A DNA stretch of 40,971 nucleotides, taken from positions 1-40,971 of the forward strand of contig NZ_JANXSO010000107.1 of the NCBI RefSeq assembly GCF_025352645.1, read 5' to 3'. Of this stretch, positions 9,340-15,396 are shown piece after piece (the first letter of the stretch is position 1; each line of letters begins with the position of its first letter). Made by a program: the position numbers and the translations under genes. This DNA is from Iodobacter sp. (GTDB lineage: Bacteria > Pseudomonadota > Gammaproteobacteria > Burkholderiales > Chitinibacteraceae). The notes below the pieces were generated by a model. The model made no database searches and had not been told where the DNA came from. It saw nothing but the letters and a program-made list of their open reading frames with translations.

Positions 9340-10740
9340 ATGCTGCGCTATTTTTCCTTCCGTACCCTGCTGATGATTGGCTTTGCCTTAGTGGCGTTGA
9401 TGCCTTCGGCGGCTTTGGTGCAGCTTCGCTATGATTTGGCCGAGCTCACCATTAAGGCGCAACAGCAGCAGGTTTTAGCCAAAGATTGGTCGAATGCAGC
9501 ACAGCATAGCCAAGAGCAAGCTTTATATTTAGAGCGTGCTAGCCGGCAATTATTAATTTTGCCCGAAGACACATTTTTAAATGCCGCTCGTAGCGCCAAG
9601 GTCCAGCTGCTTATGGCGCAAGAGGTGTTGCAGCAGAGCAAAAACCCTTTAATCGGGCAAAGTAGCGAAAACATCCACCAACTACTTAACCAGCCAGGCC
9701 CGCGCTTAAAAAAGCCCCAGCTCAACCAACTTTTTTCACAGCTAGATAAAGAGTTAAAAGAGCAGAAGCGCTTAATTGAGCAGCAATTAGCCCAGCAAAG
9801 CCAGCAGTGGCTAGAGCAGGTTGGCCGTAAGCAAAAGCAGGCCGATCTACTAGCAGTTCTATCGCCGATTGCCGCGCTTACCTTGGCGCTCTTGATGGCG
9901 GTACTGTTTAGTTGGCCAATCGTGCAGCTTAAACGGCAGATTACTCTGCTGGCACAGGGGCAACGTGGCCAAAGCTGGCATATGGCTGGCCCAGCAGATT
10001 TGCAAGGCTTAGCCAAATCGTTAGCTGAGCTGGATTTACGCTTGGTACAGCTAGAGGCGCAAAAAGCGCAGTTTTTTCGCCATGTATCTCATGAATTAAA
10101 AACCCCACTTGCGGTAATTCATGAGGCCTCCTCTTTATTACAAGAGGAAGTGTTAGGTAGCTTAAATAGCCAGCAAAAAGAAATCAGTAGCATGGTACAA
10201 AGCAATGTTCACACCTTACGCCAGCGTGTGGATGCACTCTTGGCCCACGATGCAGGGCGTTGGCTCTCTGCCGAGCTAGAAATCCGCCCCTTAGTACTTA
10301 AAGCGTTTTTAGCCCAGCGCCTACAGCAGTGGCGCTTATTACTCGAAAAAAAATCGCTAAGCGTTAAGCAATCCGGCCAAGAGCCGTTTGGCTATGCTGA
10401 TCACGCCAAGCTAGGGATTATCCTCGACAACCTACTACTGAATGCCATCCGCTTTAGCCCGCCACAGGGTGAGCTACTGATTCGCTACGGCCGGGATCAC
10501 TCACTAAGCTGGCTAGAAATTGAAGACCAAGGCCCAGGCGTGGCCAAGCAAGATGCAGAAGCTATTTTTGAGCCCTTTCACTGTGGCGCAGCGCCAGCTG
10601 GCGAGAGCGCCGGATCGGGCATTGGCCTTACCATGGCCAGAAGCTTTGCCCAATTAATGCAAGGTGATGTTGAACTTATACCCTGCCCAAGCGGTGCATG
10701 CTTTCGCTTGCACTGGCAGTTAGCACAAGGCAAACCATGA
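9340..10740 (+). CDS. qseE: Sensor histidine kinase, QseE/GlrK type
   Basis: The 466-residue kinase has TM1 at about residues 8-28, a periplasmic helical and Gln-rich region to about 165 that is likely coiled coil, TM2 at about 168-193, a HAMP-like linker, the phospho-acceptor His251 in FFRHVSHELKTPL, and a HATPase domain with N box (LDNLLLNAIRFS), G1 (IEDQGPGV) and G2 (GSGIGLTMA). It is the first of three genes joined by 4-base ATGA overlaps, with a QseG-like lipoprotein second and a sigma-54 activator third. This is the order of the enterobacterial qseE-qseG-qseF (glrK-yfhG-glrR) operon. In that system the kinase responds to envelope conditions and phosphorylates QseF. An AAGGAGG sequence lies about 40 bases upstream of the ATG, too far to be its ribosome site. 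Confidence 0.88.
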   Translation: MLRYFSFRTLLMIGFALVALMPSAALVQLRYDLAELTIKAQQQQVLAKDWSNAAQHSQEQALYLERASRQLLILPEDTFLNAARSAKVQLLMAQEVLQQSKNPLIGQSSENIHQLLNQPGPRLKKPQLNQLFSQLDKELKEQKRLIEQQLAQQSQQWLEQVGRKQKQADLLAVLSPIAALTLALLMAVLFSWPIVQLKRQITLLAQGQRGQSWHMAGPADLQGLAKSLAELDLRLVQLEAQKAQFFRHVSHELKTPLAVIHEASSLLQEEVLGSLNSQQKEISSMVQSNVHTLRQRVDALLAHDAGRWLSAELEIRPLVLKAFLAQRLQQWRLLLEKKSLSVKQSGQEPFGYADHAKLGIILDNLLLNAIRFSPPQGELLIRYGRDHSLSWLEIEDQGPGVAKQDAEAIFEPFHCGAAPAGESAGSGIGLTMARSFAQLMQGDVELIPCPSGACFRLHWQLAQGKP

Positions 10741-11219
10741 AATTCACTCTAAAACCGTTGGCTCTTGCAGCGCTTATGTTGAGCGCCTGCGTCAGCCTCC
10801 CACCACCCGCCCCAATACCTGTACCTGCTGCTGCTCCCCCTACTACACCAAGCCCTGATATTCCTGCATGCAGCTTGGCAGCGGGCCTCAGCCAATTCAG
10901 CGCCCCAAATACCGGCAGCACCTGCGCTAGCGATCGCTTGCTCAATCTAGCGCAGCAAATGATGAATAACCATAGTGATATCAACCGCGTACAAGGCCAG
11001 CTCGATGCCCTGCTTGCGCAAGATCTGGATTCCGCCAACCGCAGCTTTGCCCTTATTTTAGCCAGCCAATTAAACGAGCGAAAACGGCTAAATGGCTTGC
11101 TAGATAAGCAAATCGCCGCCACCAAAGAGCAGCAAAAGCGCGCCAATGATTTGGCCGCCAAGCTAGATGCTTTAAAAGAAATGGAAAAAGAACTATTAGC
11201 GAGAGGTAAAAAACCATGA
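10737..11219 (+). CDS. qseG: QseG-like outer-membrane lipoprotein
   Basis: This 160-residue protein has a lipoprotein signal with lipobox MLSAC (ALAALMLSACVSLP), a Pro/Ala-rich linker and then a helical region rich in Gln, Leu and Lys that ends in repeated charged heptad-like segments, consistent with a coiled coil. In enterobacteria QseG sits in the outer membrane and contacts the periplasmic part of QseE. Position and features fit here, though sequence identity cannot be judged by eye. The ATG at 10737 overlaps the kinase stop by four bases (ATGA), which decides this start over the upstream in-frame one. The stop overlaps the qseF start in the same way. Confidence 0.75.
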   Translation: MKFTLKPLALAALMLSACVSLPPPAPIPVPAAAPPTTPSPDIPACSLAAGLSQFSAPNTGSTCASDRLLNLAQQMMNNHSDINRVQGQLDALLAQDLDSANRSFALILASQLNERKRLNGLLDKQIAATKEQQKRANDLAAKLDALKEMEKELLARGKKP

Positions 11220-12568
11220 GCGCTAAAATCTTACTGGTAGACGATGATCCAGATCTCTTGCGGCTCGTCTCCATCCGGCTGATTGCCGCAGGCTTTGAAG
11301 TGATCGCGGTAGAGAGCGCCGAAGAAGCCTTAAATGCGCTGGCCGTACAACGCGCCGATTTAATGCTGAGCGATTGGAAGCTGCCCGGCATGGATGGCAT
11401 GGCCTTGTTTGAAGAAGCCCGCCGCCGCTACCCTGCCTTACCGGTAATTATGCTGACGGCTCACGGCACTGTTCCCGATGCGATTGAGGCCATCAGCCAC
11501 GGCATGTTTGCTTACTTAATCAAGCCTTTTGACGGCAAAGCCCTGCTGGATAAAGTAAACCAGGCGCTGCTATTAAGTAGCCCACCCAATCCGCTAAAGC
11601 ACGATGTCGACGATTGGCGCTCAGGCTTTATCAGCTGCAGCCCCGTAATGGACGAGCTACTCGCCGAAGCGCGCTTAGTGGCGGTAACCGATGCCAGCGT
11701 GCTGATTCGCGGCGAAAGTGGCACCGGTAAAGAGGTATTGGCCCAAGCCATTCACCGCGCCAGCTTACGCGCGGCCAAGCCTTTTATCGCCGTAAATTGC
11801 GGGGCGATTCCCGATAATTTATTAGAAAGCGAATTATTCGGCCATGAAAAAGGCGCATTTACTGGTGCCAGCCAAAAGCAAAATGGCTTATTTGTAGAGG
11901 CCGATGGCGGGACAATTTTTTTAGATGAAATTGGCGATATGCCCTTGCCATTACAAGTTAAATTACTGCGGGTGCTGCAAGAGCGCGAAATTCGCCCCGT
12001 TGGCGCAGGGCGTGCCATCCCTGTGAATGTGCGGGTGCTTTCCGCCACCCACCGCGATTTACCCTCCTTACTGCAAGATGGCTCGTTTAGAGAAGATCTA
12101 TTTTACCGACTGAATGTGGTGTCGCTCGCCCTGCCCGCACTGATCGAGCGGCGCGAAGATATCCCACTGCTCGCCCGCCACTTTTTAGCCCAAGTAGTAG
12201 AGCGTTACGCCAAAACCGATTGCCACTTTGCCGCCGATGCGCTTAGTTTTTTAAGCACCGCAAACTGGCCGGGCAATATTCGCCAGCTATCTAATCTGGT
12301 TGAGCAATGCTGCGTGCTAGCTACCGGCCCCATGATTACGCTAGCCCAAGTACAAAAAGCCATGCTTAACGACGCTGCCGCCATCCAGCCGCTGGCAGAA
12401 GCCAAACGGCTCTTTGAGCGTGATTATCTAGAGCGCTTATTACGCCTTACCGGAGGCAATGTCAGTGATTGCGCCCGCCTTGCCGATCGCAACCGCACCG
12501 AATTTTATCGCCTCCTACAAAAACACGATCTTGCCCCTGCCGCCTTTAAGGCGGGTCTTGCACCATAA
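11216..12568 (+). CDS. qseF: Sigma-54-dependent response regulator, QseF/GlrR type
   Basis: The 450-residue NtrC-family activator has a receiver domain (acidic pocket VDDDPD, phospho-acceptor Asp53 in LSDWKLPGMDG, Lys in LIKPFDG) and an AAA+ domain at about residues 138-370 with Walker A GESGTGKE (166-173), the sigma-54-contacting loop GAFTGA (213-218), Walker B TIFLDEIGDM and an Arg finger region FREDLFYRLNV. A Fis-type helix-turn-helix closes the protein (GGNVSDCARLADRNRTEFYRLL). Phosphorylated by QseE it should activate sigma-54 promoters. Two such promoters with sites of the known GlrR consensus (TGTC-N10-GACA) lie just downstream. The gene ends at a strong terminator at 12608-12642. Confidence 0.92.
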   Translation: MSAKILLVDDDPDLLRLVSIRLIAAGFEVIAVESAEEALNALAVQRADLMLSDWKLPGMDGMALFEEARRRYPALPVIMLTAHGTVPDAIEAISHGMFAYLIKPFDGKALLDKVNQALLLSSPPNPLKHDVDDWRSGFISCSPVMDELLAEARLVAVTDASVLIRGESGTGKEVLAQAIHRASLRAAKPFIAVNCGAIPDNLLESELFGHEKGAFTGASQKQNGLFVEADGGTIFLDEIGDMPLPLQVKLLRVLQEREIRPVGAGRAIPVNVRVLSATHRDLPSLLQDGSFREDLFYRLNVVSLALPALIERREDIPLLARHFLAQVVERYAKTDCHFAADALSFLSTANWPGNIRQLSNLVEQCCVLATGPMITLAQVQKAMLNDAAAIQPLAEAKRLFERDYLERLLRLTGGNVSDCARLADRNRTEFYRLLQKHDLAPAAFKAGLAP

Positions 12569-12607
12569 ACAAAGCTTGGCTCTAAATCCTGCTGCAGCTG
12601 AATTCCT

Positions 12608-12642
12608 AAAGCCCAACTAAGCCCGCCTTAGATGGGCTTTTT
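12608..12642 (+). terminator. Intrinsic terminator of the qseEGF operon
   Basis: AAAGCCCA-A-CTAAG pairs with CTTAG-A-TGGGCTTT across a 5-base loop, followed by TT. It lies 40 bases after the qseF stop. Confidence 0.85.
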
Positions 12643-12702
12643 GCTAGTGGATTAACCCTTAAAGCCTTGAATTACCAACGATACGCTGCCCTCAAGCCAA
12701 AT

Positions 12703-12720
12703 CGTCGTGTTTTAGCAACA
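12703..12720. promoter_or_regulatory. Upstream activator half-match, distal site of gene 12928
   Basis: CGTC-N10-AACA matches six of eight positions of TGTC-N10-GACA, the published GlrR/QseF site. It lies exactly 64 bp upstream of the stronger proximal site, the same spacing as in the second promoter. Confidence 0.5.
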
Positions 12721-12766
12721 ATATATATCCATATAAATCAATCACTTACAAAAGCCACAGTATTAA

Positions 12767-12784
12767 CGTCGCTAATTAGCGACA
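12767..12784. promoter_or_regulatory. QseF/GlrR-type activator site, proximal site of gene 12928
   Basis: CGTC-GCTAATTAGC-GACA matches seven of eight positions of TGTC-N10-GACA and contains the perfect 16-bp palindrome GTCGCTAATTAGCGAC (12768-12783). Its first base is 81 bp before the -24 element. Confidence 0.7.
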
Positions 12785-12847
12785 TCCATCACGCCCACAC
12801 TGAAGCACAAAAACGCTAACTTATTGAATATAAACAAATAAACGAAC

Positions 12848-12863
12848 TGGCACGGTGTTTGCT
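12848..12863 (+). promoter_or_regulatory. Sigma-54 promoter of the repeat-protein gene
   Basis: TGGCACGGTGTTTGCT fits the -24/-12 consensus TGGCAC-N5-TTGCW exactly, with 10 bases between GG and GC. The start codon is 65 bases downstream of the -12 end. ATTGAATA stands 25 bp upstream of its first base, as it does at the second promoter. Confidence 0.88.
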
Positions 12864-12927
12864 ACATGGTAGTCAAGCCCAACGAGAAATCGTTAAATCT
12901 AGACTTACCCTCCAAAGGAAACACACC

Positions 12928-13317
12928 ATGAAAAAGAATCTTCTCATCGCCGCCCTATTTGCTACTTGCGCCGCTACTGCTGTTTGGGCTAATTCAACAG
13001 ACGCTTCTGCGCCTGCTGGTTTACGTGCTACCCCAGCCGATGCTTCTGAGCCAGCTGGTTTACGTGCCGATGCAAATGATGCTTCAGTTCCAACCAGCCT
13101 ACGTGCCGATGCCAACGATGCTTCAGTTCCAACTAGCCTGCGTGCCGATGCCAACGATGCGTCGGTGCCAACTAGCCTGCGTGCTGATGCAACAACGGAT
13201 GCCTCTGCACCATCTAGCCTGCGTGCTGATGCAACCACGGATGCCTCTGCACCATCTAGCCTGCGTGCCGATGCAACAACGGATGCCTCTGCACCAGCGA
13301 GCGCTCGTATTGTTTAA
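12928..13317 (+). CDS. Small secreted protein of tandem DAS-x-P-x-x-LRADA repeats
   Basis: The 129-residue precursor starts with a Sec signal (ALFATCAATAVWA, cleavage before Asn22). The mature protein is almost wholly eight units of 11-14 residues with consensus DASxPxSLRADAN/TT, beginning at residue 25 and ending in SARIV. It has no Cys, is rich in Ala, Ser and Asp, and is likely disordered and periplasmic or exported. No family was recognised. It has an AAAGGAAA ribosome site, its own sigma-54 promoter with two activator sites, and a strong terminator, so it is a single-gene unit placed directly after the matching activator operon. Units 3-5 and 5-7 are nearly identical in DNA, so copy number probably varies between strains. 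Confidence 0.85.
   Translation: MKKNLLIAALFATCAATAVWANSTDASAPAGLRATPADASEPAGLRADANDASVPTSLRADANDASVPTSLRADANDASVPTSLRADATTDASAPSSLRADATTDASAPSSLRADATTDASAPASARIV
13000..13314 (+). repeat. In-frame 39/42-bp tandem repeats
   Basis: Eight units encode the repeat protein. The first five are 39 bp, the next two plus the preceding junction extend to 42 bp through an extra Thr codon, and the last is short. Neighbouring units share long identical stretches, as expected for recent slippage or recombination. Confidence 0.85.
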
Positions 13318-13328
13318 TCGCTTCACTG

Positions 13329-13370
13329 CCCATAAAAAAACCACGAATGCGTTCGTGGTTTTTTTATGGG
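13329..13370. terminator. Strong bidirectional-looking terminator
   Basis: A 19-bp perfect stem (CCCATAAAAAAACCACGAA and its complement) has a 4-base loop TGCG, with T-runs in the arms on both strands. It ends the repeat-protein transcript. Confidence 0.88.
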
Positions 13371-13438
13371 TGAAACTCAGCAAATAGATAAAAGACGGTG
13401 ACGACTCTATTAATAGTGCTTTATTTCCTTTTGATCAT

Positions 13439-13456
13439 CGTCGCTCATTAACTACA
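13439..13456. promoter_or_regulatory. Upstream activator half-match, distal site of gene 13659
   Basis: CGTC-N10-TACA matches six of eight positions of TGTC-N10-GACA and stands exactly 64 bp upstream of the perfect proximal site. Confidence 0.5.
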
Positions 13457-13502
13457 AATTATTTTCAAAGAAATCAATGGCTTATATAAAACAGTGTTTT
13501 TC

Positions 13503-13520
13503 TGTCGTGCAGCCCAGACA
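13503..13520. promoter_or_regulatory. QseF/GlrR-type activator site, perfect consensus
   Basis: TGTC-GTGCAGCCCA-GACA matches the published GlrR consensus TGTC-N10-GACA in all eight positions. Its first base is 81 bp before the -24 element, identical to the first promoter. Confidence 0.78.
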
Positions 13521-13583
13521 AAGCAATTCTAGTGCGGAGCACCATTAAATCATAAGTCATTGAATACATTGATAATATCAAAC

Positions 13584-13599
13584 TGGCACAGCACTTGCT
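13584..13599 (+). promoter_or_regulatory. Sigma-54 promoter of the second small secreted protein
   Basis: TGGCACAGCACTTGCT is a full match to TGGCAC-N5-TTGCW. Like the first promoter it continues as TTGCTAC and has ATTGAATA 25 bp upstream of its first base. Confidence 0.88.
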
Positions 13600-13658
13600 A
13601 CTAATGAAGTATCAGTGAGAAATCATTGATTGGTTTTCTACTCAGAAGGAAGTGCTCT

Positions 13659-13946
13659 ATGAAAAAATATCTATTGATTGCATCCATGATTGCCAGCTTT
13701 GCAGCTACTGCTGCTTGGGCAGATATCTCCAAGTGGGCTGATTACAGCGCGTTTAACAAAACCTCAGAAATGCACGCTGATGCGCGTACCCCGCCAGCCT
13801 CAGATATGAGAATCGACTCCCCAGAATATCCAAACCCTGATCAAGCATCTGCTCCTAGCCGCAGAATGCCGCCTCCTGATACAGCGCAAAATGGATCACC
13901 CAACGAAACACCTGACACATCACCCGAAGATGGCATGCAATATTAA
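13659..13946 (+). CDS. Small secreted Pro/Ser-rich protein, sister of the repeat protein
   Basis: The 95-residue precursor begins MKKYLLIASMIASFAATAAWA, closely like the signal peptide of the repeat protein, with cleavage expected before Asp22. The mature part is short, hydrophilic, rich in Pro, Ser, Asp and Asn, without Cys and without a recognised domain. It has AAGGAAG before the ATG, its own sigma-54 promoter, two activator sites and a terminator. Both transcripts also carry GAGAAATC in the leader. The two genes therefore look like paralogous units whose mature regions have diverged, both probably QseF targets. An upstream ATG at 13626 is possible but would put charged residues before the signal peptide. 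Confidence 0.8.
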   Translation: MKKYLLIASMIASFAATAAWADISKWADYSAFNKTSEMHADARTPPASDMRIDSPEYPNPDQASAPSRRMPPPDTAQNGSPNETPDTSPEDGMQY

Positions 13947-13957
13947 ACCCATCACTA

Positions 13958-13996
13958 AACCTAAAAAACCACGAATCTTTCGTGGTTTTTTTAGGT
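13958..13996. terminator. Terminator of gene 13659
   Basis: AACCTAAAAAACCACGAA pairs with TTCGTGG-T7-AGGTT around a tiny loop, with T-runs. It is clearly related in sequence to the terminator at 13329-13370 (shared ACCACGAA...TTCGTGGT core). Confidence 0.85.
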
Positions 13997-14047
13997 TAAA
14001 AAAATGAGCATAAATCGTTTAGCTGCTTTTATCTCTAGCAGAAGCAG

Positions 14048-14965
14048 CTAAAGCCCCTGAATTAAACCATACTCCACGCCACTGATCTGCCCCACCGTCA
14101 CCAGCATAGCGCGGGAGGTAATCACATCCGCCTGAGTTGTTAAAGGCGCCACAGACGATGCCCCCACAGCAGAGCCCGCAACATGCTCCGCCGTACCAAA
14201 TAAATTAGCCCGCACACAAATATCTGCATCAAAGCCCATCACCACAATGGTGGCAAAGCCCGTAACAAAGGTATTAAACGCCGCATGCACACCCCCCATA
14301 TGCCTAGCCCCAAGCTCAATTACCAGCATATTGGCGCAAAGATTAAATTCTGCCTGTAAATCTGGGCACAGCGGCGCAGCACCAATATTCAGCGCACAAA
14401 CGCCCCCATTGCGATACTCGATAGCCGTCAAAACTGATTTCATATGATCGACCACCCGCATTCCATCTACTCGCTCATAAATACCATTTGGCGTACCGGT
14501 TAAATGAATCATCACCACGCCCACAGCCCCTGCCGTGGTGTAAATAAAATCCTCAACACTCAAAGGATTGGGCGCCCCTTCCCACTGGCACACTGGGTGG
14601 ATGCGATGGGTCTGGTTATACATCCCTGGCCCTAATGGATTAAATGCCACAGGCATGGCCGCTTGGGTATAACGCACCGCTCTTGCTCTTTGCGCATACA
14701 GCGGCACCCATTGGGCCCGTGGCACTGGGTACATTCGCTGTAAGTAATGCAGGGCTTTTTTATACTTATTCGCTTTATTAACATACACAGCATCGGGTAG
14801 ACCTCTGATGCGTACGATTTCGGCTACCACCTGTAAGGTAGTGCCTGCCGGATCATTTAACACAGCCACCAAGGGCGCAAGCGAGCTAGTGCGAAACCGT
14901 GAATAGCTGGTGTTTACAGCGCGTACAAATTGCATAAACGTCACTACATGAGCAAAAACAGCCAT
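14048..14965 (-). CDS. Hypothetical protein, possibly isochorismatase-like
   Basis: No certain family. In the 305-residue protein the C-terminal half reads like a Rossmann-type cysteine hydrolase: VVMIHLTG, MLVIELGARHMGGVHAAFNTF and ATIVVMGFDADICVRANLF. The last resembles the G-x-x-T-D-x-C-V segment of isochorismatase-family enzymes. If so, the Cys is present but the family Lys (in an x-x-K-x-x-x-S-x-F context) is replaced and the first catalytic Asp is not obvious, so activity is doubtful. The N-terminal 140 residues are unmatched. There is no signal peptide. I chose ATG 14965 because GGGG lies a few bases upstream; a TTG two codons earlier is possible. It is single-gene and transcribed towards the sigma-54 module. 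Confidence 0.5.
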   Translation of the reverse strand: MAVFAHVVTFMQFVRAVNTSYSRFRTSSLAPLVAVLNDPAGTTLQVVAEIVRIRGLPDAVYVNKANKYKKALHYLQRMYPVPRAQWVPLYAQRARAVRYTQAAMPVAFNPLGPGMYNQTHRIHPVCQWEGAPNPLSVEDFIYTTAGAVGVVMIHLTGTPNGIYERVDGMRVVDHMKSVLTAIEYRNGGVCALNIGAAPLCPDLQAEFNLCANMLVIELGARHMGGVHAAFNTFVTGFATIVVMGFDADICVRANLFGTAEHVAGSAVGASSVAPLTTQADVITSRAMLVTVGQISGVEYGLIQGL

Positions 14966-15396
14966 ATTCAAACCCCGCAGAATAAAACTTAATTGCGCTC
15001 ATCTTAGTTATAAAAAGTAATAAACAAGTTAAATACCCATGCCACGAAGGTAAATACACTTCAAAAAACAACAGCTTTGTATAAATAATGAGCCACCCTA
15101 TAAGGCCAGCTCCTTTGAAGCTTTAGAGACATTCTTAAGCCTCATCGCCACCGCCAGTTATATCGTGATTGACGAGATAGCGGCCAGTAACTGCGGCAGG
15201 CAAATAGCAAGCTTTTCATCAGAGAGAAAGTCTAAGCACCTGAAATGCCCGTACTTGCACCGGCTATTAACATTTAATTCACAGTCAAGAATAAAATATG
15301 CGTATTTAAGGCAATCCACAACGCTAAAAGGCAGACAAGCCCAAACAATTAATGAATACTGGCGGCCTCCCGCTATTGCATAAACAAGAGAAATCC
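14966..15396. other. 431-base gap; possible coding remnant
   Basis: A continuous frame from about 15080 to 15383 translates as YKASSFEALETFLSLIATAS and then VIDEIAASNCGR. It lacks a credible start and ribosome site and loses any pattern after about 15200. It could be a relic of a transposase or other gene; I cannot name it. Promoters for both neighbours should lie here. Confidence 0.35.

Follow-up and report, generated by a model that had tools for sequence, protein, structure and literature searches.

Two sigma-54 promoters (P1 and P2) located just behind the qseE-qseG-qseF genes of Iodobacter sp. are very probably the output arm of the QseE-QseG-QseF (GlrK-QseG-GlrR) envelope-sensing system, and their sequence suggests a mechanism that combines QseF, IHF, and sigma-54. 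The regulator is known and the output module is apparently undescribed. The window that we analysed is a stretch of DNA of 40,971 nucleotides. It contains an operon with the gene order qseE-qseG-qseF at positions 9340-12568, followed by two one-gene transcription units.

The first gene, a qseE (glrK)-type gene (9340..10740, plus strand), is predicted to encode a sensor histidine kinase with HisKA and HATPase_c domains. Its product and E. coli GlrK share 29% identity in an alignment of 412 columns (E=3e-41), and the GlrK model was absent among the 25 of its 66 NCBIfam matches listed. Between qseE and qseF is a qseG-type gene (10737..11219, plus strand) predicted to encode a lipoprotein with the lipobox LSAC. 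BLASTP gave no significant match between this protein and E. coli QseG, and profile comparison gave a weak one (hhalign probability 75%; HMMER 1.5e-7 with one target). Its tail has the sequence LKEMEKELLAR, similar to that with which QseG contacts QseE, the contact residues being those given in the accessible part of PMC12691602. Such a tail motif was found in 42 of 101 neighbours, the window counted in, versus 0/2020 shuffles. The third gene, qseF (glrR; 11216..12568, plus strand), is predicted to encode a sigma-54 activator with a receiver and a Sigma54_activat domain; GAFTGA is present in its translation and its Fis-type helix-turn-helix, RNRTEFYRLLQKH, aligns with RNRTEFYKLLSRH of E. coli, with HTH_8 just under the Pfam cut-off (19.1 vs 22). 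The top NCBIfam model for QseF is GlrR (NF011695), at 582 bits against an equivalog cut-off of 763 that is not reached, and the protein is 89% identical to the QseF of a same-genus relative (G006). The gene order and a QseF that is 54% identical to E. coli GlrR resemble the three-component system of E. coli, whereas QseG is barely similar in sequence. The genome also encodes RpoN and IHF-alpha.

P1 contains a distal QseF-type site (CGTCGTGTTTTAGCAACA, 12703..12720, scoring 6/8), a proximal one (CGTCGCTAATTAGCGACA, 12767..12784, 7/8), and a sigma-54 -24/-12 element (TGGCACGGTGTTTGCT, 12848..12863), all on the plus strand. P2 has the same parts: a distal site (CGTCGCTCATTAACTACA, 13439..13456, 6/8), a proximal site (TGTCGTGCAGCCCAGACA, 13503..13520, 8/8), and a -24/-12 element (TGGCACAGCACTTGCT, 13584..13599), again on the plus strand. 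At both promoters the distal and proximal sites are 64 bp apart and the proximal site is 81 bp from the -24 element. The coordinates, site scores, and both spacings had been reported in a preliminary description of this DNA and were all reproduced to the base. When the published upstream activating sequence TGTN12ACA was scored on the letters, the site at 13503 matched 6/6 and those at 12703, 12767, and 13439 matched 5/6 each. A region scan with a simple scanner detected no sigma-70 promoter. Both promoters also carry predicted IHF-type sites, judged against WATCAANNNNTTR, which we take to be the IHF consensus. At P1, a consensus site (AATCAATCACTTA, 12736..12748, plus strand) is between the two QseF-type sites and a second site with one mismatch (ATTCAATAAGTTA, 12817..12829, minus strand) overlaps ATTGAATA; the counterparts at P2 are AATCAATGGCTTA (13472..13484, plus strand) and ATTCAATGACTTA (13553..13565, minus strand, one mismatch). 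The motif ATTGAATA, located at 12823 and 13559, is indeed 25 bp ahead of each -24 element as first described, and it is now assigned to the IHF-type site.

Each promoter is followed by a small gene whose signal peptide, like its terminator, was read from the sequence. Gene 1 (12928..13317, plus strand) is predicted to encode a protein of 129 aa with a Sec-type signal peptide and DAS-x-P-x-SLRADA repeats; a 42-bp palindrome at 13329..13370 (plus strand) reads as its hairpin terminator. Gene 2 (13659..13946, plus strand) is predicted to encode a protein of 95 aa with a signal peptide resembling that of gene 1, and its hairpin terminator (13958..13998, plus strand) has a CCACGAA/TTCGTGG core like that of gene 1. 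Neither terminator was listed by the simple scanner. Each protein had no Pfam match and one NCBIfam match far under the cut-off. Our guess is that these Iodobacter proteins are disordered, are produced in large amounts under envelope stress, and reside in the periplasm or outside the cell. Gene 1 is composed of tandem repeats of 39-42 bp (13-14 aa), and its length differs among Iodobacter genomes. The minus strand has an open frame for 307 aa at 14048-14971; neither Pfam nor NCBIfam gave it a match at E 0.1.

Promoter, signal peptide, and terminator core all show the two cassettes to be paralogues, with identity at 98 of 190 aligned promoter positions. The equal spacing had been thought hard to explain by chance, and a pair of sigma-54 matches with two site distances in common occurred in 0/3000 dinucleotide shuffles of 12569-13700, but because the cassettes are paralogous this agreement is in part inherited, does not count as two independent events, and is weak evidence alone. 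Independent evidence therefore has to come from other genomes, where the conservation described below is strong evidence.

QseF was found in 9/9 Iodobacter genomes, the window included. The first promoter with both sites directly follows qseF in eight of them. The exception is G002, where the pair of promoters and their peptide genes stand at a distance of 675 kb from qseF; the activator sites there are at 146/81 and 145/81 bp, ATTGAATA is unchanged, and the architecture is thus intact though unlinked. The second unit is present in five genomes (window, G002, G004, G007, and G008), and in G004 its promoter retains the -24/-12 element and no longer has recognisable activator sites. Gene 1 varies from 113 to 165 aa beside qseF and is 85 aa in G002.

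Conservation of the sites in relatives with qseEGF, which the preliminary description had put forward as a check, was examined in 114 loci: a relatives set of 34 (the window and 33 others) and 80 named loci, the best 80 of 584 stretches confirmed after using the DNA-binding domain of QseF as a query, a sample skewed to close relatives, Variovorax, and Polaromonas. One locus (L124) was excluded as too short, and the 113 scorable loci, nearly all betaproteobacterial, are not all distinct since L119 and L134 are duplicate contigs of G006 and G011. A promoter was scored when, within 1.2 kb after qseF, a sigma-54 match of at least 9/11 had a TGTCG-N7-GCGACA-like site of at least 9/11 located 45-230 bp upstream. 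Such a promoter follows qseF in 103/113 loci of this combined set (34 relatives-set loci plus the best 80 of 584) versus 23/2260 shuffles (1%); these loci are related, so significance tests overstate their independence and give p-values that are too small. Real DNA used as a control gave 99/109 on the same strand and 3/109 on the opposite strand downstream of qseF, 0/101 and 7/101 far downstream, and 0/111 and 1/111 inside qseF. Upstream of the operon, the counts were 3/93 on the same strand and 15/93 on the opposite strand, several of the latter looking real. On the same strand, a candidate promoter ahead of qseE, sought between -4160 and -2900 relative to the qseF end, was rejected, its three occurrences in 93 loci having weak -24 elements. 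Ten of the 113 loci have no promoter after qseF by this test (L038, L044, L061, L062, L147, L151, L154, L175, L189, and L198). The first four are the misses in the relatives set of 34, and L038 is G002, where the promoter is present elsewhere.

Clustering 104 promoters at 72% identity gave 72 clusters, in which the proximal sites form a ladder with steps of approximately 10 bp at about 82, 92, 103, 112, and 122 bp before the -24 element. The nearest passing site is at 80-84, 92-93, 102-106, 111-113, or 121-122 bp in 65/72 clusters, the 106-bp value (L183) deriving from a weaker second -24 match, and the gaps at 85-91, 94-101, 107-110, and 114-120 bp are empty across all 72. The remaining seven clusters have it at 75 bp or at 138-179 bp, with just one site above threshold in the latter range. 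The resultant length R was 0.68 at 10.5 bp and had a maximum of 0.74 near 9.75 bp in the range tried (9.5-11.5 bp); this periodicity was matched by 0/3000 random sets. Distal and proximal sites are 64-68 bp apart in 49/52 clusters, and separate lineages occupy separate rungs. The 64/81-bp arrangement of the window thus belongs to a single rung of this ladder, whose steps agree with the DNA helix. Exact 64-bp and 81-bp spacing had been proposed as a search key; it holds in the window, but because relatives occupy other rungs, a search with it would miss most of them. An IHF-type site with at most one mismatch in minus orientation is 31-33 bp before the -24 element in 50/72 clusters versus 7/3600 shuffles, and one is located between the activator sites at fixed offsets in 41/52 versus 19/2600; the offset windows were picked after viewing the data and are hence fitted, and the enrichment is large. 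Anywhere in the region, such a site was found in 63/72 clusters versus 17% of shuffles.

The association with QseF was examined in 61 genomes, 34 of which were scored as QseF-positive (match at E <= 1e-100) and 27 as QseF-negative. The strict full site-promoter pattern was found in 18/34 positive and 0/27 negative genomes, or 7/18 versus 0/17 by genus. It occurs once per genome and is directly behind qseF in 17/18; half of these 18 genomes are Iodobacter. The hypergeometric chance, calculated by hand and ignoring kinship, is approximately 2e-6 when genomes are counted and 0.005 when genera are counted. Most of the 16 positive genomes without an exact strict match pass the looser test of at least 9/11. 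A looser half-site pattern was rejected as non-specific, matching in 49/61 genomes; since some of these are QseF-negative, the full pattern alone discriminates. Together with the identity of the site to the glmY enhancer consensus and the unlinked promoters of G002, this association argues for the earlier proposal that QseF drives the two sigma-54 promoters, which also withstood its own check of site conservation in relatives carrying qseEGF. An alternative is that P1 and P2 depend on sigma-54 and are driven by a different enhancer-binding protein, as further sigma-54 activators are to be expected in such genomes. The restriction of the strict pattern to QseF-positive genomes, its place directly behind qseF, and the identity of the site to one preceding E. 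coli glmY all count against this, and we consider it very unlikely. That the equal spacing is a remnant of a recent tandem duplication, with sites decaying without selection, would agree with the paralogy of promoter, signal peptide, and terminator and with the loss of recognisable sites from P2 of G004. However, 9/9 Iodobacter genomes retain the two sites of the first promoter while the flanks have diverged, and the architecture is found again in other genera, there in front of other genes, and persists unlinked in G002; such a remnant appears very unlikely.

It is also conceivable that P1 and P2 are minor targets of a QseF whose chief targets are other genes, for instance the glmY or rpoE known from enterobacteria. 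We searched 31 genomes, the window genome included, for the glmY RNA (RF00128) and found it in none, with a positive E. coli control. Matches to rpoE above the cut-off are present in 9/9 Iodobacter genomes, but as a target it was rejected: at these nine loci the site-promoter combinations reach just 8/11, in five of them. Of 23 matches to TGGCAYN5TTGCW in the window's own genome, those at P1 and P2 are the only ones with such activator sites, so that no third promoter of this architecture was seen. Many of the others are inside genes, and two precede genes whose translations read as pilin-like and flagellar-looking. Scans of this genome from the site side with the strict sigma-54 consensus found no further good site pair, although strict sigma-54 patterns could miss weaker promoters. 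Overall, a minor role for P1 and P2 seems unlikely.

Our preferred reading remains that P1 and P2 are direct outputs of QseF. Phosphorylated QseF would bind the distal and proximal TGTCG-N7-GCGACA-type sites, and IHF would bend the DNA between them and once more just upstream of the promoter, placing the QseF oligomer on sigma-54 RNA polymerase at the -24/-12 element. In Iodobacter, the cassette of enhancer, promoter, small secreted protein, and terminator would have been duplicated, so that one switch controls two genes, each with its own terminator, both proteins presumably being secreted. Many Betaproteobacteria have this enhancer-promoter right behind qseF, and the gene placed under it varies with the lineage.

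In each relative, a simple rule of ribosome-binding site and length selected the downstream gene, and the choice is unreliable for L059, L063, L125, L145, L162, L183, L184, and L187. Pfam assigned 29 representative downstream proteins to BON (16, including L123 just under Pfam's cut-off), MdoG (3), glycine zipper (2), and glycosyltransferase (1, which is MdoH by NCBIfam), with seven having nothing above cut-off. Classes for all 114 loci (34 plus the best 80 of 584) were assigned with models built from the chosen genes themselves, giving BON at 39, MdoG/MdoH at 39, Iodobacter-type repeats at 9, CGxCG/glycine-zipper at 6, short peptides at 5, and 16 unclassified. Where it can be classified, the controlled gene is thus predicted to encode a periplasmic or envelope-related protein. 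The proposal that the outputs are secreted peptides would apply to the Iodobacter repeat peptides and does not extend to the relatives, since 78 of these 114 loci, the best 80 of 584 included, have BON or MdoG/MdoH. When placed on a 108-row QseF tree, the output classes require at least 16 changes, compared with a shuffled mean of 57.5. Iodobacter falls within a supported 15-row QseF group whose other classified members have BON outputs, from which we infer that repeat peptides probably replaced a BON gene in Iodobacter. The OsmY/BON, MdoG/MdoH, and bactofilin families are found behind such promoters in relatives; the Iodobacter proteins match none of them.

Five loci have short peptides with a signal-like start (48 aa in L048, L049, L051, and L052; 42 aa in L050). 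The terminal motif of four of the five, S-x-P-Q-S-L-T-R/K, is similar to a single Iodobacter repeat unit, and the Iodobacter gene might therefore be an expanded short-peptide gene. In L126, L132, L157, and L163 (Variovorax/Pseudacidovorax), a 67-aa open frame that starts 27 bp after the -24 element is between the promoter and mdoH. One qseF and BON locus (L179) groups with Betaproteobacteria in a record labelled as a Pedobacter MAG and is probably a mis-binned contig.

On the opposite strand upstream of qseE, 12/101 loci have a divergent combination of a sigma-54 match with a site 79-123 bp before the -24 element. In nine of these (L053, L144, L156, L160, L161, L175, L185, L189, and L192) the divergent gene reads as bactofilin, and Pfam confirmed this in the five tried: L156 (1843-2493), L160 (2039-2575), L175 (2092-2640), L144 (2039-2560), and L053 (9590-10132). 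A sigma-54 promoter with QseF-type sites thus appears to drive a bactofilin gene divergent from qseE. Two bactofilin loci, L175 and L189, have no promoter after qseF. Of the remaining divergent combinations, L158 and L197 look like chance and L061 is unclassified.

Upstream of glmY, QseF binds three TGTN12ACA sites with the help of IHF, as given in the accessible part of PMC6075780. The E. coli glmY promoter carries TGTCGCTTTCTGGCGACA, which is the site consensus seen here, and is like P1 and P2 in the 63-bp spacing of its two sites nearest the promoter, in its linkage to qseEGF, and in having an IHF-consensus site between those sites and an IHF-type site 31 bp before the -24 element. By contrast, it has three sites with the proximal one at 107 bp, which is off the ladder, where P1 and P2 have two with the proximal at 81 bp, and the IHF-type site nearest its promoter points the other way. 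In enterobacteria the output gene, upstream of qseE, specifies a small RNA; here the outputs are protein genes downstream of qseF. The qseEGF genes are known in Betaproteobacteria (PMC12691602 and PMC8895600, in the parts accessible to us), and the accessible part of PMC12691602 names no betaproteobacterial QseF target. GlrR is described in Acidithiobacillia, with a figure on activator binding sites, in what is accessible of PMC12194929, and a QseF-like activator group is listed in PMC3162934, likewise in its accessible part, whose title argues that sigma-54 controls the bacterial exterior, in agreement with the outputs seen here. The preliminary description knew of no account of such a module, and the literature matches listed, which cover few subscription papers, included no report of it, of QseF targets in Betaproteobacteria, or of such a promoter family.

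We suggest, more tentatively and as a possibility that we would not yet favour, that QseEGF ancestrally served periplasmic homeostasis through direct envelope outputs, that the fixed QseF-IHF-sigma-54 enhancer takes lineage-specific genes, that glmY is derived, and that small periplasmic outputs may feed back on QseG-QseE. The genes so plugged in would be those for the BON protein, mdoGH, the glycine-zipper protein, bactofilin, and short or repeat secreted peptides. The QseEF/GlrKR targets described in the accessible parts of the literature found are enterobacterial (glmY and rpoE). Our results name candidate direct targets in many Betaproteobacteria, for example genes for the synthesis of periplasmic glucans (Variovorax and Polaromonas), and the envelope or periplasm is the common theme of the outputs. 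They would also provide a clear case in which an enhancer geometry, the distance ladder with its two IHF-type sites, persists while the gene that it controls changes.
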